From a virus: a stretch of 20,431 nt of DNA. Made by a program: the position numbers and the translations under genes. Positions 6,485-20,431 of the stretch are shown in pieces. The notes below the pieces were generated by a model. It did no database searches. It saw nothing but the letters and a program-made list of their open reading frames with translations, and was not told where the DNA came from. The stretch is taken from positions 1-20,431 of the IMG/VR virus record IMGVR_UViG_3300025632_000108. The stretch is one strand, 5' to 3'. The stretch's first letter is position 1. The number at the start of each line of letters is the position of its first letter.

Positions 6485-8562
6485 CGTGGCATGATGCCTC
6501 CAACATTAGCTAATTTAGGTGCTTGTTTAGTTGTGCCTGTTCTTTCTTGTCTTACTCTATCTAACATATCATCAAGCTCTACAGCACCAGCATCAGATGA
6601 TCCATCACCAATACCTGATACAACATCAGCAGGTACAATATATTCTCCCGGTGATACAGCAACAGGTCTTTGATTTCCTATCATGCCCATTACTTCATCA
6701 TCCATTCCACCGCCTTGACCTTTAATCATTCCTTGTGTTTGGGCTTGTTGTGTAGGATTTAATACTGATTCTCGTATTTGCATAAATATTTCATTGCCAT
6801 ACTTTTGTATAAACATATCTATTACTGCATCGCCATTTGGAATACTGCCTGTAATAGCCATAGTAAGTTGCTCAACTTCTTGTGGTTGAGGCATTATTCC
6901 ACCAGCTTGAAAATCAAACCCCATATCTCTTACAGTTTGTGGGCTTTTTTCTGCTAGTGCTTTAAGACCTTTATTATCTTCTGGTATTTTTTTTCCTGCA
7001 GCTAAACCAATTAAACCACCACTAGCTAAATCTCCACCACCTTGTTCTCTAGATTCTTGATTTTTTAAATATTCTAAATAGTCTGCAGATGCTTCACCTA
7101 TATCATCTCTTAATAATAAAGATGAATCTCCACTTAAGTATGGATTAGATGCATATGGATTAGATGTAAGATATTGATTTATATCAGTCATAAAATCATT
7201 TTTTACATTAGCCATAATAGGACTGCCATCAGACATAGTAGCATTTGGATTATATGATTGATTGTATTCACTTTGCCCACGACCAGTAGTATCACCATAT
7301 AAATAGTCATTAGTACCACCATATAAATATGAATTTATAAATCCAGCAAATGGACCGCCATATCCTGCATTTCCAAGATAATTTTGATTGTATGTAGCTG
7401 GTCTATTGCTTAATGGAAAATAATTAAACTCAGCGTCAATACCGGGTCTATAACTACTAGGTGGTTTAAATTGACCTGTGCCTTCCATCTCACCTGTAAG
7501 TTGATTTTCAACCATAACTTCAGTTCCTTTAGGGTCTTCAAATCTACTAATTGTAGGTTCTGGTGGTGGCATATACATATAGTCTTGTGCACCAGCCATA
7601 GCTGCTTCAAAGCTATTATCTACTTGCGGTATAGGTTGTGATGATTGAGTAGGATCATCTGGCATAACTGGAACTTTTTTGCCTTCTGCTAAAGAAACTA
7701 TTCCACCACTAGCCCCATAAAAAGGAGAACTAAATGGTATTTGTTCTGGATTATCAGCAAATAGTTGATCTCGTCTTCTTTTTTTATCTAACTCAAACTG
7801 AGCCATATCTCTTTCAAATTGTTCTTGTGCTTCCATTACACCTCTTTGCCCTTCGCCCATAGCTATAGGCAAGTAAGCAGATGGTTGAGATAAAGCAGTT
7901 AATGTATCTCCGCTAAGTAAATTTTTATTCATAGCAGAAAATCTATCACCTGCTCCTGTAGATATATTTAAATTTGGATTCATTGATTGTGCTTGTGCTA
8001 ATACATCTGCTTGTGATGTAAGACCACTATCTATAGCTTGTTGTACAGATGATGGATCAAGACCAACAAGTTTAGTTGGATCACCTTGAAACGCTGCTGT
8101 TGCTGCATCTTTTGCTGTAGTTGAAGCTGCATCTCCTATTGCTTGTGCTGTAACTGTATTTTCTGCTCCAGCCCCTTTGACAGCTTCTGTAAAAGCTTCT
8201 TGACCTGCTGCATCTGCACCTGATCCTACACCACCTAATACTTTACCAAGACCAAATCCTGTTATACCAGCCATAATTCCTTTTTTAAGATCGCCTTCTG
8301 CTATAGCTGTAGCTAGTCCTGAGCCAATAGCTCCTGCTGCTGCACTACCCAATGTACCACCAAGTAAACCTACTCCAGCATAACTACCTAGTAGTGGTGC
8401 TAAAAATGGTAAAAATGCTTCAGGTTGTCCTGTTTGTGGATTTTGTGTTAAAGGCATCATGGATGCTAAACCTTGCACTTCTGCTGGGTTAACATGCATT
8501 AACATGGAATCGCCATAACGACCTTGATTAGCTACATTTTGTGTTTGTTGCTTTATATCCAT
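6481..8562 (-). CDS. Large structural protein with Gly/Ala-rich membrane-like segment and PGEYIVPADVV C-terminus
   Basis: A 693-residue protein. Residues about 13-35 read GRYGDSMLMHVNPAEVQGLA, a signature I recognise in marine phage structural proteins. Residues about 48-115 are a Gly/Ala/Leu-rich hydrophobic stretch compatible with membrane insertion. Two short repeats follow (ASGGIVSLAEGKKV and ASGGLIGLAAGKKI) separated by a Tyr/Asn/Gly-rich low-complexity region. The C-terminal part has ITGSIPNGDAVIDMFIQKYG, then GGGMDDEV and PVAVSPGEYIVPADVVSGIG, also shared by many marine phage proteins. It starts 3 bases after the preceding gene, with GAGG upstream. An internal-virion or ejection role is likely from composition and context; no enzymatic motif is visible. 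Confidence 0.82.
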   Translation of the reverse strand: MDIKQQTQNVANQGRYGDSMLMHVNPAEVQGLASMMPLTQNPQTGQPEAFLPFLAPLLGSYAGVGLLGGTLGSAAAGAIGSGLATAIAEGDLKKGIMAGITGFGLGKVLGGVGSGADAAGQEAFTEAVKGAGAENTVTAQAIGDAASTTAKDAATAAFQGDPTKLVGLDPSSVQQAIDSGLTSQADVLAQAQSMNPNLNISTGAGDRFSAMNKNLLSGDTLTALSQPSAYLPIAMGEGQRGVMEAQEQFERDMAQFELDKKRRRDQLFADNPEQIPFSSPFYGASGGIVSLAEGKKVPVMPDDPTQSSQPIPQVDNSFEAAMAGAQDYMYMPPPEPTISRFEDPKGTEVMVENQLTGEMEGTGQFKPPSSYRPGIDAEFNYFPLSNRPATYNQNYLGNAGYGGPFAGFINSYLYGGTNDYLYGDTTGRGQSEYNQSYNPNATMSDGSPIMANVKNDFMTDINQYLTSNPYASNPYLSGDSSLLLRDDIGEASADYLEYLKNQESREQGGGDLASGGLIGLAAGKKIPEDNKGLKALAEKSPQTVRDMGFDFQAGGIMPQPQEVEQLTMAITGSIPNGDAVIDMFIQKYGNEIFMQIRESVLNPTQQAQTQGMIKGQGGGMDDEVMGMIGNQRPVAVSPGEYIVPADVVSGIGDGSSDAGAVELDDMLDRVRQERTGTTKQAPKLANVGGIMPR

Positions 8563-8565
8563 TCT

Positions 8566-8904
8566 TTATCTTTCCTCTTTGGTTTCACAGCCAAACATAT
8601 TAAAACTCATGTCAACTGCACTTGTATAAACTTTGATAACATCAGTTTGATTTAATGTTATACCTAAAACGATTGCTAGGGAATCATTAGCTGCGACTGA
8701 TTTATCATAGTATATATACTGTTTATCATCAGCACCTGCTCCACTTACATGAACACTTAATCTAAAAGTAATAGCAGAACCTGTGCGATTTGCTGCAACA
8801 ATAGAACTAACTGTTGTTTGTGTCATGTCTGGCACTGTGTATAACACAGTAGTTGTGGTAGCCGCTGGGTCTAACTGTCCTAATACTTTAAGATTATCAG
8901 CCAT
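8566..8904 (-). CDS. Small beta-rich virion structural protein
   Basis: A 112-residue protein with alternating hydrophobic strands: LGQLDPAATTTTVLYTVP, TVSSIVAANRTGSAITFRLSV, a DDKQYIYYDK segment, then ITLNQTDVIKVYTS and MSFNMFGCE. This pattern is widespread in phages next to tail genes and suggests a beta-sandwich fold. No signal peptide or membrane segment is present. Its start overlaps the end of the 67-aa gene by 8 bases (ATGGCTGA). A decoration or tail-associated role is inferred from context. Confidence 0.72.
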   Translation of the reverse strand: MADNLKVLGQLDPAATTTTVLYTVPDMTQTTVSSIVAANRTGSAITFRLSVHVSGAGADDKQYIYYDKSVAANDSLAIVLGITLNQTDVIKVYTSAVDMSFNMFGCETKEER

Positions 8905-9100
8905 GTTTCATTCCCATAAGTAAAAATTGTTGTCGTCTTGAAGCTTTGCTTATAGTAGTAGACTTCATTTTATCTGTTAAAGTAATTCTAGCGTTAATAT
9001 CTTCTATAGCCTGTTCTATTAATCTGCGTGTAACAGCTTCATTATTTGGATCAAACTCTTGACTAGGTAAGGGTAATGCTATTGTTTTAATATCAGCCAT
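8897..9100 (-). CDS. Small conserved phage protein, unknown function
   Basis: A 67-residue protein, MADIKTIALPLPSQEFDPNN followed by a helical stretch with RRLIEQAIEDINARI. Small proteins with this layout (short beta N-terminus, one amphipathic helix) often lie between the gp10-like tail gene and the small beta-rich structural gene in marine phages, so I take it as a genuine structural or assembly gene. It starts in a TAATG junction with the 621-aa gene. No catalytic motif is seen. Confidence 0.7.
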   Translation of the reverse strand: MADIKTIALPLPSQEFDPNNEAVTRRLIEQAIEDINARITLTDKMKSTTISKASRRQQFLLMGMKHG

Positions 9101-10965
9101 TATCTTTTACCATCTGGTCTAATTTCTAATCTAAGATCACCTGCTCTCCATCCATAGTTACTAGATGAATTAGATATTCTTAATGCAGCTTGTCTGCTTC
9201 TAGCTCTAGTATTAGAAAATGTAGAGTTAGGTGTTACATTAATAGTTTGTAATGTAGTTAAATCTTGTAGTGGATAGTCTCTGCCTTTAATAGTGTAAGT
9301 TACACTATCGCTTGTACCTTGTTGATCTCTAAATTGCACATCAGGTATTAGTTTAGATATAAAAGTAAACTTTTCTCCATCTGGTTCTAAGTCAAAATCA
9401 CTTGATTCAATATAAGCATTAAAATTACTGCCATCATTACCATGACCTTTTTCATGATTGTAAACATAGTTAAGATTGCTTGAATCATTTTTACTTGCAG
9501 CTATAGGATATTCTAGTATTGATGCTTGATCCCATGCTGTTCTTACAAAGCCATCATCAGTTGTGCCTATACTCCAAACATTTTCTAGATAGTTAAATAA
9601 AACATATTTATCTATTTCTGTATTAGTTCCTGATGGATAAAACCATATTACTTCATTAGCAATGTTATTAACTGCAGCAAATACTTTAAATGATTGATCT
9701 TGATTTAAATCAGATAAAACATAATCTAATACTGTACATGGTATTTTTTCTGCAGAACCTGAATAGCTATAAAAGCCACCTACATCCATAAAATAAACTC
9801 TATTATTAGCACTTACAGCAGCATTAGGTCCTATAAGAGATGCTCCTTCTCCTACTTCTGTAAATGAAAATATAAATGGTTCACCAACAAAACGCATAGA
9901 AACAATGCCTACATCAGTCCATATAAGTATTTCTTGCCTTGTTCTAAGTGCTCCAATAATTTCAGAACCTTGTGAAAGTTGTACACCACCAGCTTGATTG
10001 GTTGCTGTAGGAGTCCAATCTACTGCACTTTCTCTATCAGAAAATCTTACTAGTAAAGGGTCTATAGTGCTTGAGCCTATAGGATTGCAACCAAATGCAA
10101 TACAATGTTTGTCTACATCAGAAGTCATTACTTGTATAACTGCTGTAGGAACATCACTTGCACCTGCTTCTGCTGATAGTAATGTAGCTCTAGTACTTAA
10201 ACCATCTGATTCATCCCAAAAATATATTGGTCCACCTCTAGGTGCAGCAAGAGTATCATCACCAAAATTATCTATAGTCCATAATCTAAGTTGATTGGTT
10301 AAAGATAAATCAGCTTTTGATCCCCATGTTCCTGCTCCCCAAGGATTTACACCCCAACCAGTAGTACGAACATAAACATCTAGTCCTGAGTTAATTTGAT
10401 ATACACCATCTACCCCTGAACCACCATTCCCTGTATCACTTGAATTAGCAGTAACAGTATTACCATCACTATCTTTAGCAGTAAAAGTATAAGTATCTGC
10501 AGTAGGAACAGAATCAATTTGATATTCTTGATTTAAAACAGTAGCTGTAATTAATCCACCCAAACTAACAGCTTGTGCAAAAGTAACAAAATCTCCTGCA
10601 ACTGCTCCATGTGCATTATCAGTAGCTGTAATAGTAGATGATCCATTAGTTGCTGCAAATACAACACCATTAGTAGAAGTAGCTCTAATAGGATTTATAT
10701 CGTAATAAATATCTCCATTAAGAACATAAAGTTTTTGATGAGTACCAAGTATTATAAACTGATCTCCATCAATAGCTTTATATGGGTATAGTTTTCTACA
10801 AGTTCCAATAAAACTTCCATCAGTAAATTTATCCCAGCCACCTATGCGTTCAGGTTTACCTTTACGAAATCTTACTTTGTCAGCATCAAACCAACCATAT
10901 TCATTACTGTAGTTAGTACCTTCTTTATTTATACCGGGTCTAAAAACATATTTAACTAAAGGCAT
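9100..10965 (-). CDS. P22 gp10-like tail/DNA-stabilisation protein (beta-propeller-like)
   Basis: A 621-residue protein beginning VKYVFRPGINKEGTNYSNEYGWFDADKVRFRKGKPERIGGW, shown here in short pieces: RPGINKEGT, GWFDADKVRFR, PERIGGW. The middle carries EILIWTDVGIVSMRF, EGASLIGPNAAVSANNRVYF and a YSYSGSAEKIPC segment, typical of phage tail-hub or plug proteins related in organisation to P22 gp10. An insert near residues 110-165 (AHGAVAGDFVTFAQA to YTFTAKD) looks like an added beta domain. The C-terminus (TRARSRQAALRIS, LRLEIRPDGKR) fits the closing strands of such proteins. The protein would sit at the neck or tail of the particle and retain packaged DNA. The assignment to the gp10 group rests on pattern memory, not a search. 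Confidence 0.78.
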   Translation of the reverse strand: MPLVKYVFRPGINKEGTNYSNEYGWFDADKVRFRKGKPERIGGWDKFTDGSFIGTCRKLYPYKAIDGDQFIILGTHQKLYVLNGDIYYDINPIRATSTNGVVFAATNGSSTITATDNAHGAVAGDFVTFAQAVSLGGLITATVLNQEYQIDSVPTADTYTFTAKDSDGNTVTANSSDTGNGGSGVDGVYQINSGLDVYVRTTGWGVNPWGAGTWGSKADLSLTNQLRLWTIDNFGDDTLAAPRGGPIYFWDESDGLSTRATLLSAEAGASDVPTAVIQVMTSDVDKHCIAFGCNPIGSSTIDPLLVRFSDRESAVDWTPTATNQAGGVQLSQGSEIIGALRTRQEILIWTDVGIVSMRFVGEPFIFSFTEVGEGASLIGPNAAVSANNRVYFMDVGGFYSYSGSAEKIPCTVLDYVLSDLNQDQSFKVFAAVNNIANEVIWFYPSGTNTEIDKYVLFNYLENVWSIGTTDDGFVRTAWDQASILEYPIAASKNDSSNLNYVYNHEKGHGNDGSNFNAYIESSDFDLEPDGEKFTFISKLIPDVQFRDQQGTSDSVTYTIKGRDYPLQDLTTLQTINVTPNSTFSNTRARSRQAALRISNSSSNYGWRAGDLRLEIRPDGKR

Positions 10966-11408
10966 TACACAGCACTCCAGTCTTTATCTTCAAACATTAA
11001 TGCTTCTGCTTCTCTCCGTCTTATTAATCCTTCTAAAACTTTACCATTTGCTTTATTCCATCTTTTTATTTGACTTGGAATTAAATGGTAATCACCTGCA
11101 TTTAAAAATTTTAACATAGTAGATGCTTTTAAATTAGCTGGACCAAGATTAAATACCCAAGATACCAAAGCATCAAACTGATTTTGTTTAAGAGGAATCT
11201 TTACTAGCTCTTTGATATAACCTTCATACTCTTGCATTTCATGTAATAACAAATTATCTGCTTCTTTTTGCGTAAGAGTATCTCCTTCTTTTACATCTTT
11301 AGTTGAACCATAACCTATAGTCCAAACACCTGCTGCACATTGATATGCTTCTAATTTACATCCTTCAAATTTTTTTATTAAAGATATTCCTTCTTGTGAT
11401 ATGTTCAT
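10965..11408 (-). CDS. Endolysin, GH24 T4-type lysozyme
   Basis: A 147-residue lysozyme that cleaves the peptidoglycan MurNAc-GlcNAc bond. Near the N-terminus are LIKKFEG (Glu15), AYQCAAGVWTIGYG (Cys24 and Thr30). The spacing of 9 and 6 residues equals the T4 triad Glu11-Asp20-Thr26, with Cys in place of Asp, a variant known in many prophage endolysins. NQFDALVSWVFNLG and the C-terminal GLIRRREAEALMF segment match the family, and the length is typical. There is no signal peptide or signal-anchor, so it should accumulate in the cytoplasm and need a holin. AGGAG lies 5 bases before the ATG, and the start overlaps the o-spanin stop as ATGA. Confidence 0.95.
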   Translation of the reverse strand: MNISQEGISLIKKFEGCKLEAYQCAAGVWTIGYGSTKDVKEGDTLTQKEADNLLLHEMQEYEGYIKELVKIPLKQNQFDALVSWVFNLGPANLKASTMLKFLNAGDYHLIPSQIKRWNKANGKVLEGLIRRREAEALMFEDKDWSAV

Positions 11409-11791
11409 TTATTCTCCTGCGGTGTAGTAACTTTTCTATAATATACAACTACTTCTTGTAACTCACTGATATAGCGTTTCAATTCTTGTGTATTGTATGC
11501 CATCAACTCATAGTCGGGTACTGACATAGCAAGAAATACAACATTACCACTATCTTTTTCTATTTGTGCAAGAAACTCATCTAAATTTTTATCTGAAACA
11601 ACATACCAATATGGATCATTTAAAGATATTTCACGAGGCATAACTGGTTGTGCTATAGATCGTTCTATAGGTTTAGAAATAATTTCTACTTGTTGTCTAC
11701 TCGGAAACAGACTGCAGCTGGAGATTATCGTCAAGACCATCAATAGTCCTGCTAACTTCTTCGATGCTATCAAATACTTTTTTTGTTCCAT
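11405..11791 (-). CDS. Outer-membrane spanin-like lipoprotein (o-spanin, Rz1-type)
   Basis: A 128-residue protein with a basic N-region, a hydrophobic core and a lipobox ISSC (Cys26), so signal peptidase II should produce a lipoprotein of about 103 residues. The mature part holds SKPIERSIAQPVMP, then DPYWYVVSDKNLDEF and ELKRYISELQEVVVYY. Its gene begins inside the i-spanin-like gene in another frame, overlapping it by 95 bases, the classic Rz/Rz1 arrangement. It is longer than lambda Rz1 but a spanin role is well supported by lipobox, overlap and the adjacent endolysin. It would pair with the inner-membrane subunit across the periplasm to fuse membranes at the last step of lysis. Confidence 0.78.
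   Translation of the reverse strand: MEQKKYLIASKKLAGLLMVLTIISSCSLFPSRQQVEIISKPIERSIAQPVMPREISLNDPYWYVVSDKNLDEFLAQIEKDSGNVVFLAMSVPDYELMAYNTQELKRYISELQEVVVYYRKVTTPQENK
11414..11418 (-). promoter_or_regulatory. Shine-Dalgarno site AGGAG for the endolysin
   Basis: AGGAG is 5 bases from the ATG at 11408, within the o-spanin coding end. Confidence 0.7.
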
Positions 11792-12092
11792 TGTTTACCC
11801 TTGTTTCAATTAAATTAGGTTTAGCAATAGCTAATTTAGTTAAATTGTGTCTTTTAAATATATCAAGATAACGAGTCATTTCTAATTCTATTTCGTTATT
11901 TCTTTTTTGTATTTCTAATAAACCTTCTGATTGCGTTTTAAAATCTTCTTGCAAAGTTTTAATAGCTTCTTTTTGTTCTTGATCTCTTAGCTTAAATGCT
12001 TGATTAAGTTCTGCTAGTTTAGAGTTTTCATTCCAAAGAAAAAAAGTAAACAGACCTAGTATTGCAAGTACACCTAATAAAATTCTACTCAT
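11697..12092 (-). CDS. Inner-membrane spanin-like protein (i-spanin, Rz-type)
   Basis: A 131-residue protein with an N-terminal membrane segment (ILLGVLAILGLFTFFLW, residues about 4-20) followed by a long charged coiled-coil (about 24-80) and a periplasmic C-terminal part with MTRYLDIFKRHNLTKLAIAKP. N-in topology with a coiled-coil is the usual i-spanin design. The o-spanin-like lipoprotein gene starts within its 3' end. Its ATG overlaps the stop of the small lipoprotein gene as ATGA. The HNLTKLAIAKP pattern is one I recognise from spanin genes of marine phages. Confidence 0.78.
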   Translation of the reverse strand: MSRILLGVLAILGLFTFFLWNENSKLAELNQAFKLRDQEQKEAIKTLQEDFKTQSEGLLEIQKRNNEIELEMTRYLDIFKRHNLTKLAIAKPNLIETRVNNGTKKVFDSIEEVSRTIDGLDDNLQLQSVSE

Positions 12093-12259
12093 TTATTAAA
12101 CTCTCCCATGCATTCTGTCCATAACTCTGTATTTATTAAATGTTTGCAAACTTCATATTGATTACGCCATTGTTCAGGATCATAAGCATCAGACCATTCT
12201 TTTTTAGGCATAGGTACTGTGCAACTTGTAAGTACAATAATGCCTAATAAATAACGCAT
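12089..12259 (-). CDS. Small lipoprotein in lysis cassette (56 aa)
   Basis: An ATG at 12259 opens a 56-residue frame: MRYLLGIIVLTSC, then VPMPKKEWSDAYDPEQW, ending CMGEFNK. The first 13 residues are a very short lipoprotein signal with lipobox LTSC (Cys13). Two further Cys (positions 38 and 50) are in the mature part. The gene exactly fills the space between its neighbours: its ATG shares one base with the previous stop (TAATG) and its TGA overlaps the i-spanin ATG (ATGA). That fit is the main support. Function is unknown; it may be a second outer-membrane partner or accessory to lysis. Confidence 0.75.
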   Translation of the reverse strand: MRYLLGIIVLTSCTVPMPKKEWSDAYDPEQWRNQYEVCKHLINTELWTECMGEFNK

Positions 12260-12606
12260 TATCCGTTTAATGGATTATCGTCTTTATTTTCTAATTTACT
12301 TAAATCTTTTTCTAAACTTTGTAAATCAGCTTTAATAGTAGCAATGTCTGTTTTAATTTCAGTTACATCAGGAACAGATATACTATCTATTTCTTTTTCT
12401 AAAAACTGAACAGATGTTTCTATAGATGCAAAGCGTTCTTCAATAACTTTCATTTCGTTTTCTGTTTCGCCTAAACCACCAATCTTGGCTTCTAGGTTAG
12501 TAATACGATTAACATACTGTGCTCCAGTCCATCCAAATCCTGCTAAGGTAGAAACTATTGTTGCTAAAGCTATAAGCTGTCCTGTTTTGCTTTGAAACCA
12601 ATCCAT
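12259..12606 (-). CDS. Small membrane protein with coiled-coil; holin-like candidate
   Basis: A 115-residue protein from an ATG at 12606, chosen because GGAG lies 6 bases upstream; an in-frame GTG at 12618 would lie upstream of that site. It starts MDWFQSKTGQLIALATIVST, giving one N-terminal membrane segment (about residues 10-30), then a coiled-coil rich in Glu, Lys, Ile and Leu (about 34-108). No enzyme motif is present. Position directly before the lysis genes makes a holin or spanin-accessory role possible, but single-TM proteins with coiled-coils have many roles. Confidence 0.75.
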   Translation of the reverse strand: MDWFQSKTGQLIALATIVSTLAGFGWTGAQYVNRITNLEAKIGGLGETENEMKVIEERFASIETSVQFLEKEIDSISVPDVTEIKTDIATIKADLQSLEKDLSKLENKDDNPLNG

Positions 12607-12608
12607 AA

Positions 12609-14861
12609 TTATCTCCACATATTAGGTTGATCATTTATCATTTGACCTAACCCTTTTAAATTATCATTTACCAGTCCATAAAAAGCACTGGTATTATCAT
12701 CTAGTGTAGCAGAAGTATATATATCAGAGCTACTGTACCAGTCTTGAGCATCAGGTACGCTAACTTGTGAATAGTTATTAAAAGCAGGAACATAGCCTAT
12801 TAGTGCTATTAGTTTAGACTCATCTCCGTATTTACCTGTTTCTTGTTGTTGTTCTTCTATTTCTTCTTGTTGTGCTTCTATGTTTGCTGCAATTATCTTG
12901 TCTGCTATTTGATCTGCTTCTGAAGCTGTCATAACTCCTGAAGATGCAGTATCAATTTCGCCTTGTACATTTTGCACTTGCACATCAGCTACAACCATAG
13001 ATGCTGCATTATCAAATGTAGGCAAAGGTGTTATAGATACAGACATACTATTAGAACTACCTACATCACTTTGCATAGACAGAACTTGGTTTGTTTGTTG
13101 TGTTGCACTAGCAAATTGATCGGATGCACTAGGACTGCTAGAGGTGCTAATACCACCACTAGATGCTGTAGAGCTTCCTGTTGATGTATTTCCTGTAGAT
13201 GAATAACTAGATGTATTATTTGATTGAGAGCCACCAGAGGCTTGTGAGTAGCTGTTAGCTGCTGTTTGTACTCCTGCTCTAACTGCATTAAGTGCTGTAA
13301 CCATTAATTTGTTTTTACCTGTAGGTTCGTCAGATTCTACTACTGCAAACTCTTCTTGAATTTCTTCTATAGATTCTTCTCTAATTTCTTCTTCTCTTTC
13401 TGCAATTCTTTCTTCTTCCATAGCTTCTTGCATTTCTTCTATTTCTTCAAAAACTTCTTCTACAGTTTCTTCTTCAAAGATTTCTTCAAGAAATTCTTCT
13501 TCTGGTTCATCAAGATTAACAAATTCTTCTTCAATTCTTTCTTCAAAATGTTCATTAGTTTCTTCATCAAACCATTCCTCTAATTCTTCAATACTATTAA
13601 ATTCAATAAATGTTTCAGGTTCGCTGTAATCTTCTACTAAAAAAGTTTCTTGAAATATAAATTCATCTAACAATAAATCGTCTTGATGTAATGGCTCATC
13701 ATGATGTGAAACAAAATCATCTATAAATGGTAAAGGTTCAGGTTCAAAAAATATTATTAATTCTTCAGGTTCAGAGCCATCAAAATATTCTTCAAAGTTA
13801 TCACCACTAAATTCTTCATAAGATGGAAACATCTCATCTTCAAAAATTTCAACTACTGTAAATTGTTCTTCAAAACCATAATCATTATAGTGATCATCTT
13901 CAAATATACCTGTGGCAAATTGTTCTTGCTCATCTACAAAACCATAATCAACATTGCTGTCATCAAAAAAAGCTACTGATTCTTCTTGTGTATATCCTGC
14001 ACAAAAAGGTGCATATTGTGGATCATCAGCACATTGTTGATCATCATAAGCATCCCAATAGTTAGGGCATGACTCACTATAAAGACCACTGATATTACAT
14101 TGTTGTGTTAATAAAGCATCTGCATAACCTGAACAACTAGAATCATTTAATGCGTTGCTACAATCAACGCTATTACCACTACCTGATCCATATAAAGAAC
14201 CGCCATTTTCTAAGTTAGTGTTTTTATCAGAGTTATTCCAGTCGTAGTTATAGCAACTAGAACCATTAGTTGTGCCAGTATTACATTCATCGTGATAGTA
14301 ATAAGTATAAGAATTTTCTTTTTTAGAACCTATTTCTCCAATAAGAACATCATGGTTAATAATATCTAATGCACCATAGCGTATGTCAAAAGAGTTGTTG
14401 TTCCAAAGTATTATTTCAAAGCTGTTGTCTGATGCTCTGTTGTACTCCCTCATGTCGTACCATCCAAAAATCATCTTGCTTGAGTCACCCCAAGACTTCA
14501 TGCGAGAATCGTTGTCTCGTATTAAGTCTGTCCAGAAAGGGTATATGGTGTAAGTATGCTGTCCATTAATAGGGTCAGGAGTATAGTCATTACAATAGCT
14601 ACCACTAGAACCAAAATGGAGACATCCATTCGTTGCCATTCGTGCTTGTGTAAAAGTAGAGCCGTAAAAAGTAAAATTAAAAGAAAGATCAATTGCAGGA
14701 CTAATACCATCATCTACTACCTCATATGCTAACTCACCATTAAAACTATTAGCGTTTGTTTGTAAATGATATAAGTCTTGTCCTGATTCGTAGGTATATT
14801 GACTTAAAGCATTAACGCTAAATAGAAATGCTATTGCGAAGCATAAAATTCTTTTTTGCAT
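12609..14861 (-). CDS. Secreted mosaic protein: NIDO-like domain, Cys repeats, acidic E/F-rich stretch
   Basis: A 750-residue protein. Residues 1-20 are a Sec signal peptide (KR, hydrophobic core, cleavage ALS-Q). Residues about 25-180 resemble a nidogen-type (NIDO) domain: FNFTFYGSTFTQARMATNG, YPFWTDL and SFEIILWNNNSFDIRYG. Residues 193-290 hold eight Cys, including two full 22-residue repeats. Residues about 295-512 are extremely acidic with regularly placed Phe. Residues about 536-605 are a Ser/Thr/Gly/Asn linker. The C-terminus has a helical Gln/Glu segment and a motif LIALIGYVPAFNNYSQV with VPDAQDWY, which I associate with marine phage proteins. Its start overlaps the previous gene by 31 bases. 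It should act in the periplasm or outside the cell; function is unknown. Confidence 0.85.
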   Translation of the reverse strand: MQKRILCFAIAFLFSVNALSQYTYESGQDLYHLQTNANSFNGELAYEVVDDGISPAIDLSFNFTFYGSTFTQARMATNGCLHFGSSGSYCNDYTPDPINGQHTYTIYPFWTDLIRDNDSRMKSWGDSSKMIFGWYDMREYNRASDNSFEIILWNNNSFDIRYGALDIINHDVLIGEIGSKKENSYTYYYHDECNTGTTNGSSCYNYDWNNSDKNTNLENGGSLYGSGSGNSVDCSNALNDSSCSGYADALLTQQCNISGLYSESCPNYWDAYDDQQCADDPQYAPFCAGYTQEESVAFFDDSNVDYGFVDEQEQFATGIFEDDHYNDYGFEEQFTVVEIFEDEMFPSYEEFSGDNFEEYFDGSEPEELIIFFEPEPLPFIDDFVSHHDEPLHQDDLLLDEFIFQETFLVEDYSEPETFIEFNSIEELEEWFDEETNEHFEERIEEEFVNLDEPEEEFLEEIFEEETVEEVFEEIEEMQEAMEEERIAEREEEIREESIEEIQEEFAVVESDEPTGKNKLMVTALNAVRAGVQTAANSYSQASGGSQSNNTSSYSSTGNTSTGSSTASSGGISTSSSPSASDQFASATQQTNQVLSMQSDVGSSNSMSVSITPLPTFDNAASMVVADVQVQNVQGEIDTASSGVMTASEADQIADKIIAANIEAQQEEIEEQQQETGKYGDESKLIALIGYVPAFNNYSQVSVPDAQDWYSSSDIYTSATLDDNTSAFYGLVNDNLKGLGQMINDQPNMWR
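12613..12616 (-). promoter_or_regulatory. Shine-Dalgarno site GGAG deciding the start of the 115-aa gene
   Basis: GGAG lies 6 bases before the ATG at 12606, inside the last codons of the 750-aa gene, and excludes the upstream GTG. Confidence 0.65.
13326..13979 (-). repeat. Glu/Phe-rich acidic low-complexity stretch within the 750-aa protein
   Basis: Residues about 295-512 are dominated by Glu and Asp with recurrent Phe, Ile and Tyr (patterns such as EEFLEEIFEEE and FEEIEEMQEAMEEE). Basic residues are rare. The first half looks extended, the second half helical. The opposite strand gives a Phe/Ser frame that is only a shadow. Confidence 0.8.
13992..14135 (-). repeat. Tandem 22-residue Cys repeats inside the 750-aa secreted protein
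   Basis: Two full units and the start of a third occur at residues 243-264, 265-286 and 287-290. Each begins C-x-x-Y and has QQC twelve residues later. Cys243-Cys265-Cys287 and Cys255-Cys277 are each exactly 22 residues apart. The units differ at many other positions, so they are old and kept for the Cys/Tyr/Gln pattern, presumably forming disulfides after export. Confidence 0.85.
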
Positions 14862-15922
14862 TGTTTTGTAGTTTTGGTTTTTCTTGTGTAAGTTTTTTTA
14901 ACTAAACCTACAACATCTTTATTTATTTTTAATCTATTTGGATTAACTTCATGTGTACATTTAGCTATGTATTCTTTTTCTGCATCTTCTACATCAGGTC
15001 TTTTAGATTGATTTTTATCCCATTCTGCTGATGCTTCTTTACCAATTTTACCTTCATACGGACAAGGAGTACCTGCCATAGACATAGCTTTAAATACTCT
15101 TTTGTCTTGGCATAATAAAGCTACTGATGCTACTTTCATGCCCATATCGTAAAGATATTTTGATAATTTTAGTCTTTCACAATTTTGATCTGTAATAGTT
15201 TTACCACCTGAAAAACCAAATACTTGTCCTTGAAATGCACCTGATACACCAGTGGTACATAAGTCCTGTGAATAAGACATTATAGATGGAGCAATAGCAG
15301 ATGCAGGGGGAGCTTCTGATTTAATATTTTGATTAATTGTTTGTGTGCTATTAGATTCGTTTATGTTTCTATTAGTATTATCTGATCTCGTATTGTTATT
15401 GTTAGTATTTGTATTATCAGTTGTAACATTAGAATCTGAAGTTGATTGATTAATGTTTGTGTTTTGATTGGTGTTATTAGATGTGCTGTTATTCGTGTTA
15501 TTAACATTCTGATTTACTGTTGAATTTACAGTTGAATTAGATGTTGATGTATTCACATTATTATTTGTATTTGTATTATTTGATGTAGAAGTTGCTGTTG
15601 AAGTATTTACATTTACATTATTGTTTGTGTTGACATTCGTATTATTGTTCGTGTTGGTCGCTGTGCTTGTAGTCGTATTCGTATTTACATTTGTGTTTGA
15701 ATTTGTGTTGTTATTCGTAGCTGTTGAAGTGTTGGTATTTGTGTTTGTGTTTGTATTAGTATTTGTCGTAGTTGTAGTATTGACTGTATCAAGACTGTTA
15801 TTCTCACAATATTGAGAACCATTTACACAAGCTGTTCCTGATTGTTGTGATGACTGAGCAAATGCATTAGCAGAAAATATAATTCCTAAAAATATAATTG
15901 ACTGGTAAATATTATTTTTCAT
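14831..15922 (-). CDS. Secreted protein with long Asn/Thr tract and conserved Cys-containing C-terminal domain
   Basis: A 363-residue protein with a signal peptide (MKNNIYQSIIFLGIIFSANAFA, cleavage AFA-Q at 22/23 by inspection). A short part with two Cys (32, 39) precedes a tract at residues about 47-200 built almost only of Asn, Thr and Ser, with Val, Gln and Asp. The C-terminal part (201-363) begins APPASAIAPSIMSYSQDLC and contains DQNCERLKLSKYLYDMG, VALLCQDKRVFKAMSMAGTPCP and a Lys-rich tail; the GTPCP region is one I recognise in proteins of several marine phages, without a known function. Its start overlaps the nuclease gene by 11 bases and its end overlaps the 750-aa gene by 31. GGAG lies about 13 bases before the ATG. 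The two secreted genes look like one unit. Confidence 0.85.
   Translation of the reverse strand: MKNNIYQSIIFLGIIFSANAFAQSSQQSGTACVNGSQYCENNSLDTVNTTTTTNTNTNTNTNTNTSTATNNNTNSNTNVNTNTTTSTATNTNNNTNVNTNNNVNVNTSTATSTSNNTNTNNNVNTSTSNSTVNSTVNQNVNNTNNSTSNNTNQNTNINQSTSDSNVTTDNTNTNNNNTRSDNTNRNINESNSTQTINQNIKSEAPPASAIAPSIMSYSQDLCTTGVSGAFQGQVFGFSGGKTITDQNCERLKLSKYLYDMGMKVASVALLCQDKRVFKAMSMAGTPCPYEGKIGKEASAEWDKNQSKRPDVEDAEKEYIAKCTHEVNPNRLKINKDVVGLVKKTYTRKTKTTKQCKKEFYASQ
15323..15784 (-). repeat. Asn/Thr low-complexity tract (coding repeat)
   Basis: About 154 codons encode mostly Asn and Thr, at first as alternating NTNTNT. On the DNA level it is a degenerate AAYACN repeat with mixed synonymous codons rather than a pure microsatellite. 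The higher-numbered third uses more AAC, ACG and ACC than most genes in the window. Confidence 0.88.
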
Positions 15923-16337
15923 TTGGGGTAAATACTCCTAACTCTATAAGTTTACTTCTATTCACTAAATGCTCTGCTTCAATATCATCTTTACTTTGTC
16001 CATGATATGCAACAGCCAAATAGCCTTCTATCATAGAAACATTAATATTAATGTCATCTACAATAACTTCCCCTAATACACGACCATATTTGCCTTTAGA
16101 ATCTTTTAACTTTGATCGTAATACTACTTTAGTGCCATTGTGAATAGCATCACCTAAATACTTTGCAGCTAATTTTCCTCTAGCTTTTTCGTCTTTATCT
16201 CTGGTTCTTGATTCAGGTGTATCAATCCCATAAAGGCGTACACGACACTTGTGAAAAATAGAAAAGCCAAGATCAAGAATAACATCAACAGTGTCGCCAT
16301 CAACCACCCTAGTGACTGTGCAACCATATTCATACAT
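15912..16337 (-). CDS. Staphylococcal nuclease-type (SNase/TNase) nuclease
   Basis: A 141-residue SNase-fold protein. VTRVVDGDTVDVILDLG carries the two Asp (13, 15) of the calcium-binding region, VRLYGIDTPE provides Arg34, Asp39 and Glu42, and GKYGRVLGEV provides Arg86. These correspond to the Arg35, Asp40, Glu43 and Arg87 set of the family, so it is predicted active on DNA or RNA. There is no signal peptide, so it acts in the cytoplasm unless released at lysis. The start shares a base with the previous stop (TAATG). Phage SNases are usually thought to help degrade host DNA or process genomes; which applies here is not shown by the sequence. Confidence 0.92.
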   Translation of the reverse strand: MYEYGCTVTRVVDGDTVDVILDLGFSIFHKCRVRLYGIDTPESRTRDKDEKARGKLAAKYLGDAIHNGTKVVLRSKLKDSKGKYGRVLGEVIVDDININVSMIEGYLAVAYHGQSKDDIEAEHLVNRSKLIELGVFTPNEK

Positions 16338-16651
16338 TATTGTTCGCCTTTAAACGATTTAGAGCTATTGCTTGTACCTGCGTATAAACCAAACCATGCA
16401 GCACCTGCACCTACAATAATAGATATAAGACCTGATTGTTCTAAGCTGGGTTCAGGTAAATCCATAAACCACATAGTTGAATAATATAATAAAAACATAT
16501 ACACACTTAAAAATAAACGTGGAAATATACGCCAAGCATCTACTGCTTTAGCTAAGTGAATTGATTTTTGATATGGGTTTGCACCTGTATTATTAATATT
16601 AGTATCAATATCTAATTCAAGACTAACTTTTTTAGTTTGTATTTCTTCCAT
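16337..16651 (-). CDS. Two-TM membrane protein, candidate holin
   Basis: A 104-residue protein with a polar N-terminus and two membrane segments: FPRLFLSVYMFLLYYSTMWF (about 43-63) and GLISIIVGAGAAWFGLYAG (about 74-92), with a short Pro/Glu loop and a polar C-tail. This is the class II holin layout, and the DAWRIFPRLF...GAGAAWFGLY pattern is one I recall being labelled holin in marine phages. It lies upstream of the lysis cassette but is separated from the endolysin by the nuclease and the secreted protein genes. The start is a TAATG junction with the 80-aa gene. Confidence 0.75.
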   Translation of the reverse strand: MEEIQTKKVSLELDIDTNINNTGANPYQKSIHLAKAVDAWRIFPRLFLSVYMFLLYYSTMWFMDLPEPSLEQSGLISIIVGAGAAWFGLYAGTSNSSKSFKGEQ

Positions 16652-16893
16652 TATCTTTTTTTTCCTTTGTGTAAACCATGTCTAGCGTGTTGTTTACCTT
16701 TTTTAGTAGCGGCTCTTTTCTTTTTATTAGCTGCTGCAAGTTTTTTTCTGCCTGCTGCTGTTGATTTTAATTTTTTTATCGTTGCTGCTGGAGCATATAC
16801 TTCACCAGTTTTAGAAGATTTTTTACCGCTTGGTGTTCTCCACTTTTGTTTTGACCAACGCTTAAGAGATTTTTGTGATTTTTTTAAAGCCAT
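16651..16893 (-). CDS. Small basic protein, DUF5872-like
   Basis: An 80-residue, very Lys/Arg-rich protein with a single acidic residue. The N-terminal part (SLKRWSKQKWRTPSGKKSSKTGE and VYAPAATIKKL) matches the conserved pattern of DUF5872, seen in many phages; the tail is AAANKKKRAATKKGK and KGKKR. It probably binds nucleic acid, but no function is established. AAGGA lies upstream. It starts at a TAATG junction. Confidence 0.78.
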   Translation of the reverse strand: MALKKSQKSLKRWSKQKWRTPSGKKSSKTGEVYAPAATIKKLKSTAAGRKKLAAANKKKRAATKKGKQHARHGLHKGKKR

Positions 16894-17567
16894 TATTCTT
16901 CATATAAATTATTAAATGTTATTTCAGGGTCCATATAACTTTCATGTTCTTCTGCAGAATGTAAATATTGTGAAGGTTTAAAATTTGGTGGACCTTCTCC
17001 TGTAACCCATAAAGCAGGATTTGTAACTCTTACTCTATTATTTGGTAAAGCAATTACATTGCCTTTCCATTTGCAATCTTCAGTTATGTACATTACATGA
17101 GATTGTTTATGTTGTGCTGGACAATCTGCTATAGAATGATCTGTATAATCTACTGTAAATAAATATTTAGATTTATAAAAATTGCCATCTATTTTTGCTA
17201 TCCAAGGACTAGAACTTGCTCTATCTAATATCATTGTTGCATGATGTCTTGATTCGCAATCCCAAGGTTGAGCTAAATGATTTTCCATTGGTTCTGGAAA
17301 ACTATCCATTGTCATATCTGCTACTAATGCTTGTATTGGCATTCTTGCCCACATAGCTCCACCATGTATATTGGGTATTTCTTCTTCATACAAATCTGCT
17401 TCACATCCTGTAAAGACTACTTGAAAACTTAAAGACCTATCAGGTATTGTATTTACTGCTATAGCTATAGCGTGTAAAAATTCTCCATGATATTTTTCAT
17501 GATTATGAGTAAATTCTTTGCGAACCCAACATTTAAAATGAGGTATATTGTCTATGAGATAAGACAC
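16893..17567 (-). CDS. Conserved marine-phage protein of unknown function (224 aa)
   Basis: A 224-residue protein beginning SYLIDNIPHFKCWVRKEFT from a GTG codon in a TAGTG junction. Other notable parts are NIHGGAMWARMPIQALV, AQPWDCESRHH, SPWIAKIDGNFYKSKYLFTVDY and IALPNNRVRVTNPALW. I recognise this as a protein shared widely among T7-like cyanophages and other marine phages, with no assigned role. It is soluble, with no signal peptide or membrane segment. Several Cys, His and Trp are spread through it (C13, C55, C103, H108, H109), and a metal site cannot be excluded. Confidence 0.85.
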   Translation of the reverse strand: MSYLIDNIPHFKCWVRKEFTHNHEKYHGEFLHAIAIAVNTIPDRSLSFQVVFTGCEADLYEEEIPNIHGGAMWARMPIQALVADMTMDSFPEPMENHLAQPWDCESRHHATMILDRASSSPWIAKIDGNFYKSKYLFTVDYTDHSIADCPAQHKQSHVMYITEDCKWKGNVIALPNNRVRVTNPALWVTGEGPPNFKPSQYLHSAEEHESYMDPEITFNNLYEE

Positions 17568-17863
17568 TACTTATATCCGCCACCTGCTTTTTTATATGCT
17601 TTAGCTAACATTTGTGCTTTACGAGCAGACCATTGACCGGGTTTACCACCTTTACCACCTGCTTTTATACGATTAAATATTCTTTTACGCATAGTAGGTT
17701 TTGTATAGTTACCTGCTTTGTTTACTGTACTTTTTTTTTTAGATGTACTTCCACCTTTTTTAAGTTTTAAAGATTGTAAAGTTTTAGCTTGTTTTGCGTG
17801 TGTTGCACTAGCTTTTTTTAAACCTTTAACTACTTTTCTTACTGTTGTTTTATTTTTATTCAT
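17567..17863 (-). CDS. Highly basic Lys/Gly-rich protein lacking acidic residues
   Basis: A 98-residue protein starting MNKNKTTVRK at 17863, chosen because this ATG forms a TAATG junction with the previous gene; upstream in-frame codons belong to that gene. It contains no Asp or Glu at all. The C-terminus, TMRKRIFNRIKAGGKGG and GQWSARKAQMLAKAYKKAGGGY, is a pattern I recall from many phage proteins. DNA or RNA binding is likely from charge only. An A10 run on the coding strand (near 17731-17740) encodes part of the Lys-rich middle. Confidence 0.75.
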   Translation of the reverse strand: MNKNKTTVRKVVKGLKKASATHAKQAKTLQSLKLKKGGSTSKKKSTVNKAGNYTKPTMRKRIFNRIKAGGKGGKPGQWSARKAQMLAKAYKKAGGGYK

Positions 17864-18048
17864 TATGAAAATATACCTGCTATAACTCCTGATGTAATAA
17901 GTAAAACATATAATCCCCAAATCATATTTTCTAATTTGTTAAATCTTACCTGTCCTTGATCTAATCTTTTTTCAATATTTTCGTATCGAATAGTGCACTC
18001 TCTTTCATGTGCTGCTATTTTTGCAAAAGATTCATTAGCGGTAGCCAT
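17863..18048 (-). CDS. Small tail-anchored membrane protein (holin-accessory-like)
   Basis: A 61-residue protein: a polar N-terminal half (ANESFAKIAAHERECTIRYENIEKRLDQG) predicted helical, then one C-terminal membrane segment (MIWGLYVLLITSGVIAGIF, about 42-60). This resembles small phage proteins such as the XhlA group, which has the same layout and assists lysis, but homology is not shown. It starts and ends in TAATG junctions. An alternative is any small inner-membrane accessory protein. Confidence 0.78.
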   Translation of the reverse strand: MATANESFAKIAAHERECTIRYENIEKRLDQGQVRFNKLENMIWGLYVLLITSGVIAGIFS

Positions 18049-18799: not shown

Positions 18800-19876
18800 T
18801 TAGCCAGTTAATGCTCTTGCTGTTGCTGGTACTCCACCACTTGTAACAAATGGATTTTCTGCCCAAGCAAAATAAGAAAAAGTATTTGTACCTCCTGCGT
18901 TTGCAGGATAAGTGCTACCTCTTAACTTAAAACCATTTGATAAAAAATCACATTTATTTTGGTCTGTTGTTTCTGCTGTATTTGCGTTTGCAAATAAATT
19001 ATCATTCATTTCGTTAAAAGTCGACCTCGTATTATCCATCATAGACCAGCCATGATTAGGGTCTGATAAGACCTTAAATATAACTAAAGCAGGTTTAAAT
19101 CCTGTATAAACGAACTCACCATTGGTACTAGCATTTCCGTAGTAGCTTCCGTAAGCTGAATACCCTTGTTTAGCTGCAAATGCGAAACATATATACTCAC
19201 TCCCACTAGCATTTTTTTGAATATCACCACCTGTACTAAGACCTATTGTTGAACTAGAAAAACTAGACAAGACATTAGTTGCTGTGCCTTCTGTAAGATT
19301 TAAAGTGTGTCTATAAGCATTAGTTACAGCTCCAGGATTACCAGCTTTGTGTTGTACATCCCAGTTACTAACCCCAGTATCTCTGCGTTTAAATATAGCA
19401 ACATCTGGCTCTACTCCTAAACCATGCCCAATAGTATCGTTTGTTGTGCCTGAAGCTGTGTAAGTAATAATACTAAAACCTGCATCCGTATTAGCTTGAA
19501 CAGTTGAAGTTATATCACCATCTGAGTTGCTTGATGTCGTACCCCCACCTGCTTTCCATTGCCATGCTACATTTGTTTGAGAATTTTGATTCCAACTACT
19601 ACCAGAAGGTAAGCTAAACCCATCAGTTTGAAATGCTTGTATTATACTACTAGCTGTTGCCTCAACATCAGTTTTATTAACTTTAAAATATTTTGTAACT
19701 CCTGTAGTGCTATTTTGCAGCACATGGTCAACAGTAGAGTTTCTAGGTTTAATCCAAACCATGTCTGGTTTTAAATTACTATTTCCTGTATTAGTAATAC
19801 TTCTATCTGTAGCATTACCAGTATAAATAGCAACTTGAAAGTGTGCTGATGGGTCGTCTATAGTTGTATAAGCCAT
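18800..19876 (-). CDS. Tail/host-contact protein with three DUF7483-like modules
   Basis: A 358-residue protein with three similar modules: about 12-112 (FQVAIYTGN, LKPDMVWIKPRN, VAWQWKAGGG), 133-236 (FSIITYTASG, VEPDVAIFKRRD, ICFAFAAKQG) and 242-343 (GEFVYTGF, KPALVIFKVL, FSYFAWAENPF). The pattern matches what I know as DUF7483 in phage tail proteins. It begins MAYTTIDDPSAHFQ, a common opening for these. It starts in a TAATG junction with the SPRY-like protein. It is probably displayed on the tail for host contact; no enzymatic site is visible. Confidence 0.78.
   Translation of the reverse strand: MAYTTIDDPSAHFQVAIYTGNATDRSITNTGNSNLKPDMVWIKPRNSTVDHVLQNSTTGVTKYFKVNKTDVEATASSIIQAFQTDGFSLPSGSSWNQNSQTNVAWQWKAGGGTTSSNSDGDITSTVQANTDAGFSIITYTASGTTNDTIGHGLGVEPDVAIFKRRDTGVSNWDVQHKAGNPGAVTNAYRHTLNLTEGTATNVLSSFSSSTIGLSTGGDIQKNASGSEYICFAFAAKQGYSAYGSYYGNASTNGEFVYTGFKPALVIFKVLSDPNHGWSMMDNTRSTFNEMNDNLFANANTAETTDQNKCDFLSNGFKLRGSTYPANAGGTNTFSYFAWAENPFVTSGGVPATARALTG
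18848..19843 (-). repeat. Three diverged DUF7483-like modules
   Basis: Each unit is about 100 residues and is recognised by a start with a Phe/Tyr-rich strand and TG, a central PD(M/V)(V/A)(W/I)(I/F)K segment or PALVIFK, and a closing aromatic AF/AW strand. Identity between units is low, so the duplication is old. Confidence 0.7.
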
Positions 19877-20431
19877 TATCCGTACTCCGCTAAATTCTTT
19901 GTGCAGATTGCATAGTAACCACTAGGTGGTGCGTGTTCAAAAGTTCCGTAATCATTTGCATCACTTGCTGCACTTGAAATTGTGTTAATGGTGTAACCAC
20001 CAAAGTTTATATTAAATGTCCTACTTTCATAATTTTGCAAAAATGGAAAAACTGTTTTACCTTGCATATCTGAAATTAAATTACGAGTTAAAATTAAACT
20101 ACCATTAGCATAATATTTAATTGTTTGTGTAGAACTGTCCATATCTAAAGCTATTCCTAGCGTGTCGCTTGTAGTTAAAGCAGTAAATTGACCTGCACTA
20201 CTTTCACTCAAACTTCCTGAGTAAGAATAATATCTGCCTTGAGGTTCTATAGTCATATTGTAGTTTTGTGTTAATCCCTGCCCACCAATAGTGTAAGCAG
20301 TATTAGCTGTTGCTATGCCTATAAACTGAGAGCCAATAGTACCTGATGGTTTTGCTTCCCAATACCATTTACCATTTGTTAAGCCTATACTACCTTTTGC
20401 ATTTTCATCCGTTGAATTATCATATGCTGCT
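19876..20431 (-). CDS. Tail/structural protein with SPRY-like domain, 5' end outside window
   Basis: The frame is open to the window edge (about 185 residues seen) and ends TKNLAEYG. The visible part holds GKWYWEAKPSG, IGIATAN, GDTLGIALDMDSSTQTIKYYANG shown in pieces (DTLGIALDMD, IKYYANG), and TVFPFLQNYESRTFNINFG, the strand order of a SPRY/concanavalin-like domain. The end FEHAPPSGYYAICTKNL is a common closing motif of phage tail proteins with such domains. An ATG at 20256 lies inside the domain and is not the start. It likely binds a host surface ligand. Confidence 0.82.
   Translation of the reverse strand, partial: AAYDNSTDENAKGSIGLTNGKWYWEAKPSGTIGSQFIGIATANTAYTIGGQGLTQNYNMTIEPQGRYYSYSGSLSESSAGQFTALTTSDTLGIALDMDSSTQTIKYYANGSLILTRNLISDMQGKTVFPFLQNYESRTFNINFGGYTINTISSAASDANDYGTFEHAPPSGYYAICTKNLAEYG

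Follow-up and report, generated by a model that had tools for sequence, protein, structure and literature searches.

Curli, which use type VIII secretion, are carried by other pelagiphages and have been proposed to raise contact with new hosts (PMC9599517). Like the locus described here, they form a multigene exported system that moves between unrelated pelagiphages, but no shared genes are described. They are a different system and the nearest published precedent in spirit (PMC9599517). The lambda Rz/Rz1 spanins offer a second comparison. One protein of the present locus (gene3) would resemble i-spanins, with an N-terminal hydrophobic segment and a coiled coil in a lysis neighbourhood, but its constant companions are a pair of large exported proteins rather than a small outer-membrane lipoprotein. 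The gliding adhesins RemA and RemZ of Flavobacterium johnsoniae (chain 8gl6_D) match gene2 over approximately 150 N-terminal residues, and they too are exported binding proteins, as gene2 is predicted to be. They differ in being much longer and in being type IX substrates that carry the C-terminal domain of this system, whereas gene2 has a different tail, belongs to a phage module and is matched only in its N-terminal part. The matched part of 8gl6_D is not resolved in the structure (PMC10994853). The NIDO family (PF06119) shares with gene2 the motif order F.FYG..F....TNG..HF, FWTDL, SFE..L, as seen by inspection, but gene2 lies under the curated cut-off of this family in every record tested.

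The window, that is, the whole stretch of DNA analysed, is an entire virus record of 20,431 bases. Within it, gene2 is very probably the middle gene of a module whose three-gene architecture, gene1-gene2-gene3, is conserved. The module and the parts of gene2 are laid out as follows:

14831 to 15922, minus strand: gene1, 363 aa, exported, with a Thr/Asn-rich linker and a conserved Cys domain (phrog_20531)
12609 to 14861, minus strand: gene2, predicted exported binding protein, 750 aa, ATG start
14802 to 14861, minus strand: gene2 signal peptide, aa 1-20, by inspection
14322 to 14801, minus strand: gene2 head, a NIDO-like beta domain, aa 21-180, AlphaFold pLDDT mostly 80-95
13965 to 14162, minus strand: gene2 Cys repeats, three of 22 aa, aa 234-299, all Cys invariant
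13317 to 13961, minus strand: gene2 acidic spacer, aa 301-515, largely unstructured, from composition and a low-confidence model
13002 to 13316, minus strand: gene2 Ser/Thr/Asn-rich linker, aa 516-620, from the sequence
12612 to 13001, minus strand: gene2 conserved aa 621-690 and C-terminal tail aa 691-750, from dN/dS and tail homology
12259 to 12618, minus strand: gene3, with a single membrane segment at the N-terminal end and a coiled coil, ending in an NPL tail; ATG probably at 12606

Among distinct relatives, gene1 lies directly against gene2 in 80 of the 81 loci where this is testable, and gene3 does so in 100 of 105, counts that are not independent because the loci are mutually related and were gathered by similarity. 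The sole exception for gene1 is L078, in which one ORF spans gene1 and gene2. This ORF (7710-11030, 1106 aa) reflects either a genuine gene fusion or faulty assembly. Four of the five exceptions for gene3 carry an inverted gene3 that still touches gene2, and in the fifth (L132) the ORF is split. The inverted copies are those of L115, L126, L127 and L129; ribonucleotide reductase genes come next in L115 and L126, and they lie beside the module in the phage Mosig as well. Gene1 and gene2 overlap by 31 nt in the window, and an overlap of 28-31 nt recurs among the relatives, while the genes flanking the module vary or relocate. In a wider set, gene3 is present in 195 of 207 testable loci, with an NPL tail in 177. 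On a slightly looser count this tail ends 191 of 211 gene3 proteins, against 265 of 10,783 for all ORFs, gene3 included. All NPL-tailed gene3 proteins fall into one single-linkage BLAST cluster, which coiled-coil similarity may inflate. That the products of the three genes would work as one unit is well supported by synteny. The earlier note had presented gene2 as a mosaic protein. The combined features are there, but gene2 does not stand alone, since it sits in a three-gene module with exchangeable heads.

Gene2 is a real gene under purifying selection. It has at least 396 relatives in IMG/VR, and dN/dS is 0.06-0.24 across all segments, with minima in residues 621-690 (0.06) and in the head. 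The ATG start is supported by the conservation of M-x-K-R at this position among relatives. By inspection, the signal peptide consists of MQKR, ILCFAIAFLFSVNA and ALS, with Q as the residue that follows. A crude rule found a signal-like N-terminus in 241 of 244 proteins at the gene2 position and in 220 of 224 gene1 proteins; the rule is almost never positive in lysozyme, nuclease, fibre and stabilisation proteins, taken as controls, and it also flags membrane anchors such as those of gene3 and Rz. Beyond the signal peptide there are ten cysteines (80, 90, 193, 203, 234, 243, 255, 265, 277 and 287), all of them invariant in 39 aligned relatives, and residues 290-515 (226 aa) contain 89 D/E against 4 K/R. 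The ORF of 750 aa with its signal peptide, the Cys repeats, the very acidic stretch and the Ser/Thr linker had all been listed in the earlier note and are all present. The signal-like N-termini and the invariant cysteines also support its argument from export and likely disulfides, and favour an extracytoplasmic, disulfide-rich fold.

The number of 22-aa Cys repeats ranges from 0 to approximately 13 in distant gene2 relatives. Long arrays occur in the distant gene2 proteins of L152 (8486-10627) and L335 (6123-7874), and could possibly form an extendable, disulfide-linked stalk. CPW_WPC was considered as an identity for the repeats and rejected, its scores being below cut-off. No family in Pfam, NCBIfam, PHROGs or PADLOC gives gene2 a name, no Pfam or NCBIfam model matches its C-terminal tail, and none of 25 candidate cellular relatives was confirmed.

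The head was modelled with AlphaFold2 from 52 family members. Residues 20-300 form a beta domain followed by short helices in this model (pLDDT 81.7, pTM 0.70); the full-length model, with a pLDDT of 44.5, was too low for a meaningful fold search. The search with the 20-300 model found no significant solved structure in a library that may not include a solved NIDO domain. Its six matches with E <0.001, the best at 1.7e-12, are all models of viral proteins with no assigned function. The curated cut-off of the Pfam NIDO family (25 bits) is exceeded by no member of the gene2 family. Four gene2 relatives give weak PF06119 hits, two in order in each, at E 0.002-0.09 per record, and the best partial matches have E values of 0.002 and 4.8e-4 per record. 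The sole meaningful PDB sequence match of gene2 is the N-terminus of RemA/RemZ, where the family profile matches the 8gl6 chain named RemA (residues 24-173) at E 1.8e-8 (also 6.3e-9). Because the NIDO resemblance is sub-threshold and the RemA profile match stands beside it, “NIDO-like, adhesin-like” is a fair description of the predicted head. The nidogen-like domain proposed earlier survives as a resemblance, in motif order and in weak hits that stay under the family cut-off. The structure prediction suggested for residues 21-180 yielded a good beta model of the region, for which no match to a solved fold was found.

BLAST clustering divides the gene2 heads into a NIDO-like type (89), a CBM-like type (95) and rare types. 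The NIDO head profile has zero hits in CBM-type gene2 proteins, two of which, from pelagiphages, match CBM_4_9 at E 0.009-0.02, under the Pfam cut-off. The C-terminal 70 residues are related between the NIDO and CBM types (hhalign E 4e-6), and the gene2 tails of distant and jumbo contigs are related to the window type (hhalign E 2.4e-21). Matches to the tail profile are all located at the C-terminal end, with none in reversed sequences. The distant tail profile matches 88 of 88 NIDO-type and 50 of 94 CBM-type gene2 proteins, again with none in reversed sequences. The homology of these 70 residues across heads indicates that the heads have been swapped and the tail kept. The marine-phage-type C-terminal motif of the earlier note is borne out as a widely shared tail that extends to distant and jumbo phage contigs, and the profile search that it proposed recovered homologous tails across head types. 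Heads of the NIDO-like type also turn up among the distant gene2 proteins (best E 1.5e-32 with a head-only profile). The length of gene1 varies in step with that of gene2. The Thr/Asn-repeat linker of gene1 is long, and gene1 has a median of 371 aa in NIDO-type modules against 192 aa in CBM-type modules.

Searches of INPHARED by tblastn with gene2, its C-terminus, gene3 and the L152 tail gave nothing useful. With gene1 as the query, six Pelagibacter phages, two Roseobacter phages and three uncultured phages were found. An exported acidic protein of 430-611 aa comes after gene1 in HTVC202P, HTVC033P, Mosig and an uncultured Autographiviridae phage, and a small membrane/coiled-coil protein with NPL at its end comes next. 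HTVC023P and Baldr have the layout of HTVC202P plus a small inserted ORF, and HTVC115P has its gene3 homologue some genes downstream. In the cultured pelagiphages, gene1 and gene3 flank a gene2 with a different, CBM-like head. A scan with distant gene1 sequences extended the range to module contigs of up to 352 kb, in which gene2 has other heads and up to approximately 13 Cys repeats. An NPL-tailed gene3 lies within 4 kb in 56 of the 66 loci of this distant set, immediately beside gene2 in 33. Gene1 matches in genome_contigs are nearly all metagenome-assembled contigs, with one labelled AG-910-K03, and are taken to be of viral origin. The open-access literature searched neither describes the module nor offers a virion proteome of any phage that carries it.

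Read along its coding strand, the window has in turn the phrog_10198 membrane protein, a SNase-type nuclease, gene1, gene2, gene3, a putative 56-aa lipoprotein, Rz, Rz1 and lysozyme. The neighbours of the module are:

16337 to 16651, minus strand: small membrane protein, holin-like by inspection (phrog_10198, a family with no assigned function)
12089 to 12259, minus strand: 56-aa putative lipoprotein with lipobox LTSC, accessory, between gene3 and Rz
11697 to 12092, minus strand: Rz-like inner-membrane spanin (phrog_739), outside the core module
11405 to 11791, minus strand: Rz1-like outer-membrane spanin (phrog_812)
10965 to 11408, minus strand: GH24 lysozyme/endolysin (PF00959, phrog_7)

The immediate neighbours of gene2 are exported, membrane and lysis genes, and not the virion genes that the earlier note placed around it. 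The suggestion of a product used at lysis has positional support from this operon with its holin-like, spanin and lysozyme genes. Of 28 records, 23 have a GH24 lysozyme no more than 5.5 kb from gene1, compared with 8.7 expected under random placement, and in L152 the module, a membrane protein and gene3 are followed by a GH19-like endolysin just under the Pfam cut-off. The 56-aa lipoprotein, which falls below the 60-aa cut-off of the ORF list, has relatives in 34 of 84 NIDO-type and 4 of 70 CBM-type loci. As it occurs in a minority of loci, it is not a constant partner of the module. O-spanins are small outer-membrane lipoproteins whose genes adjoin, or lie within, that of the i-spanin, and no constant partner of this kind was found for gene3; the separate Rz/Rz1 pair lies beside the module. 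A charge rule for the orientation of gene3 predicts N-in for 80 of 142 proteins. Hits of PADLOC, Pfam and NCBIfam models to gene3 were judged to be coiled-coil noise, and the PADLOC models of known anti-phage defence proteins gave just weak or coiled-coil matches. The window also encodes two small, very basic Lys/Arg-rich proteins of 80 and 117 aa (16651-16893 and 17567-17920, minus strand). At 18800-20256 (minus strand) there are a DUF7483/tail-fibre-type protein and a SPRY-like protein, which diverge faster than the module.

These features point to a module that would act in the envelope of the infected cell. The reading placed ahead of exclusion or masking, adhesion and a virion part is a tentative one, namely a late envelope-located binding complex that would most likely aid outer-envelope disruption or virion release. 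Gene3 would be an inner-membrane protein whose coiled coil lies in the periplasm, and the gene2 tail would dock to gene3, gene1 or both. The long acidic spacer would give the oxidised head the reach to bind an outer-envelope glycan or protein. Acting late, the complex would hold or disturb the outer envelope, helping its disruption and the release of virions, in an accessory role beside the separate Rz/Rz1 spanins. The lysis genes in the operon and a head that changes less than the tail fibre make a late action most likely. In 19 of 19 loci the fibre gene is less conserved than gene2 as a whole and than its head, a pattern that fits a conserved envelope target better than a receptor-matched one. 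A role in release is weakened by the Rz/Rz1 pair that the window already has, so that the need for a further release function is not evident. It is also weakened by the jumbo-phage contigs, where no recognised endolysin was found near the module, and by Mosig, where the module adjoins primase and ribonucleotide reductase genes.

The exported and membrane-anchored parts, the exchangeable binding heads and the movement of a self-contained module between phages would also suit receptor masking or superinfection exclusion. The head would then cover a surface molecule that is used by an incoming phage, or by progeny on debris. This is rather unlikely, as in the lineage of the window it is the fibre gene that diverges, with the head conserved (all 19 loci), the module lies in a late, lysis-side gene block and not among early genes, and the head would have to cross the outer membrane. 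Adhesion or aggregation, in which the head on infected cells or shed at lysis glues cells, debris and particles together and increases host contact, is unlikely. The match of the head to the N-terminus of the gliding adhesin RemA/RemZ, the resemblance of other heads to carbohydrate-binding domains (below cut-off) and the precedent of phage-borne curli in pelagiphages (PMC9599517) speak for it. Nevertheless, the module is without a known surface anchor and no outer-membrane secretion system was found alongside it; CsgG is absent from all 36 module records, many of which are fragments, and a curli identity was rejected. The head-on-tail modular build of gene2 recalls fibres, and it shares a strand block with the fibre genes. 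However, a virion part that is exported, folded in the periplasm and added as a fibre or decoration when particles are released is improbable in view of the cleavable-type signal in nearly all members, the lack of any match to tail-fibre families and a conservation unlike that of the fibre gene. Finally, each protein has its own domains and the unit is deduced from sequence, but it is highly improbable that the three genes are mere neighbours in a conserved late block rather than a functional unit. Whatever the backbone or head type, they are almost always adjacent, although other neighbours move, and even an inverted gene3 still abuts gene2.

Beyond the late envelope complex proposed for the window, a broader possibility is more tentative. 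The module may represent an undescribed general phage system that spans the envelope, made up of a coiled-coil anchor in the inner membrane plus two exported proteins, an adaptor and one whose binding head is exchangeable. Such a system, neither spanin, curli nor tail fibre, might, on the same cautious footing, be distributed among aquatic phages from pelagiphages of approximately 30 kb to jumbo phages of >300 kb. The module would belong among the phage complexes that act on the host envelope, with a real chance of being a separate kind.

SAR11 bacteria rank with the most abundant marine cells, and to our knowledge the handling of the cell envelope by their phages is poorly understood. An exported module that is common to unrelated pelagiphages and to distant and jumbo phages, with swapped heads, is a strong target in this respect. 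Its presence in the cultured phages HTVC202P, HTVC033P, HTVC023P, Mosig and Baldr makes direct placement feasible, and it would name several genes among the many that these phages have listed as “hypothetical”.
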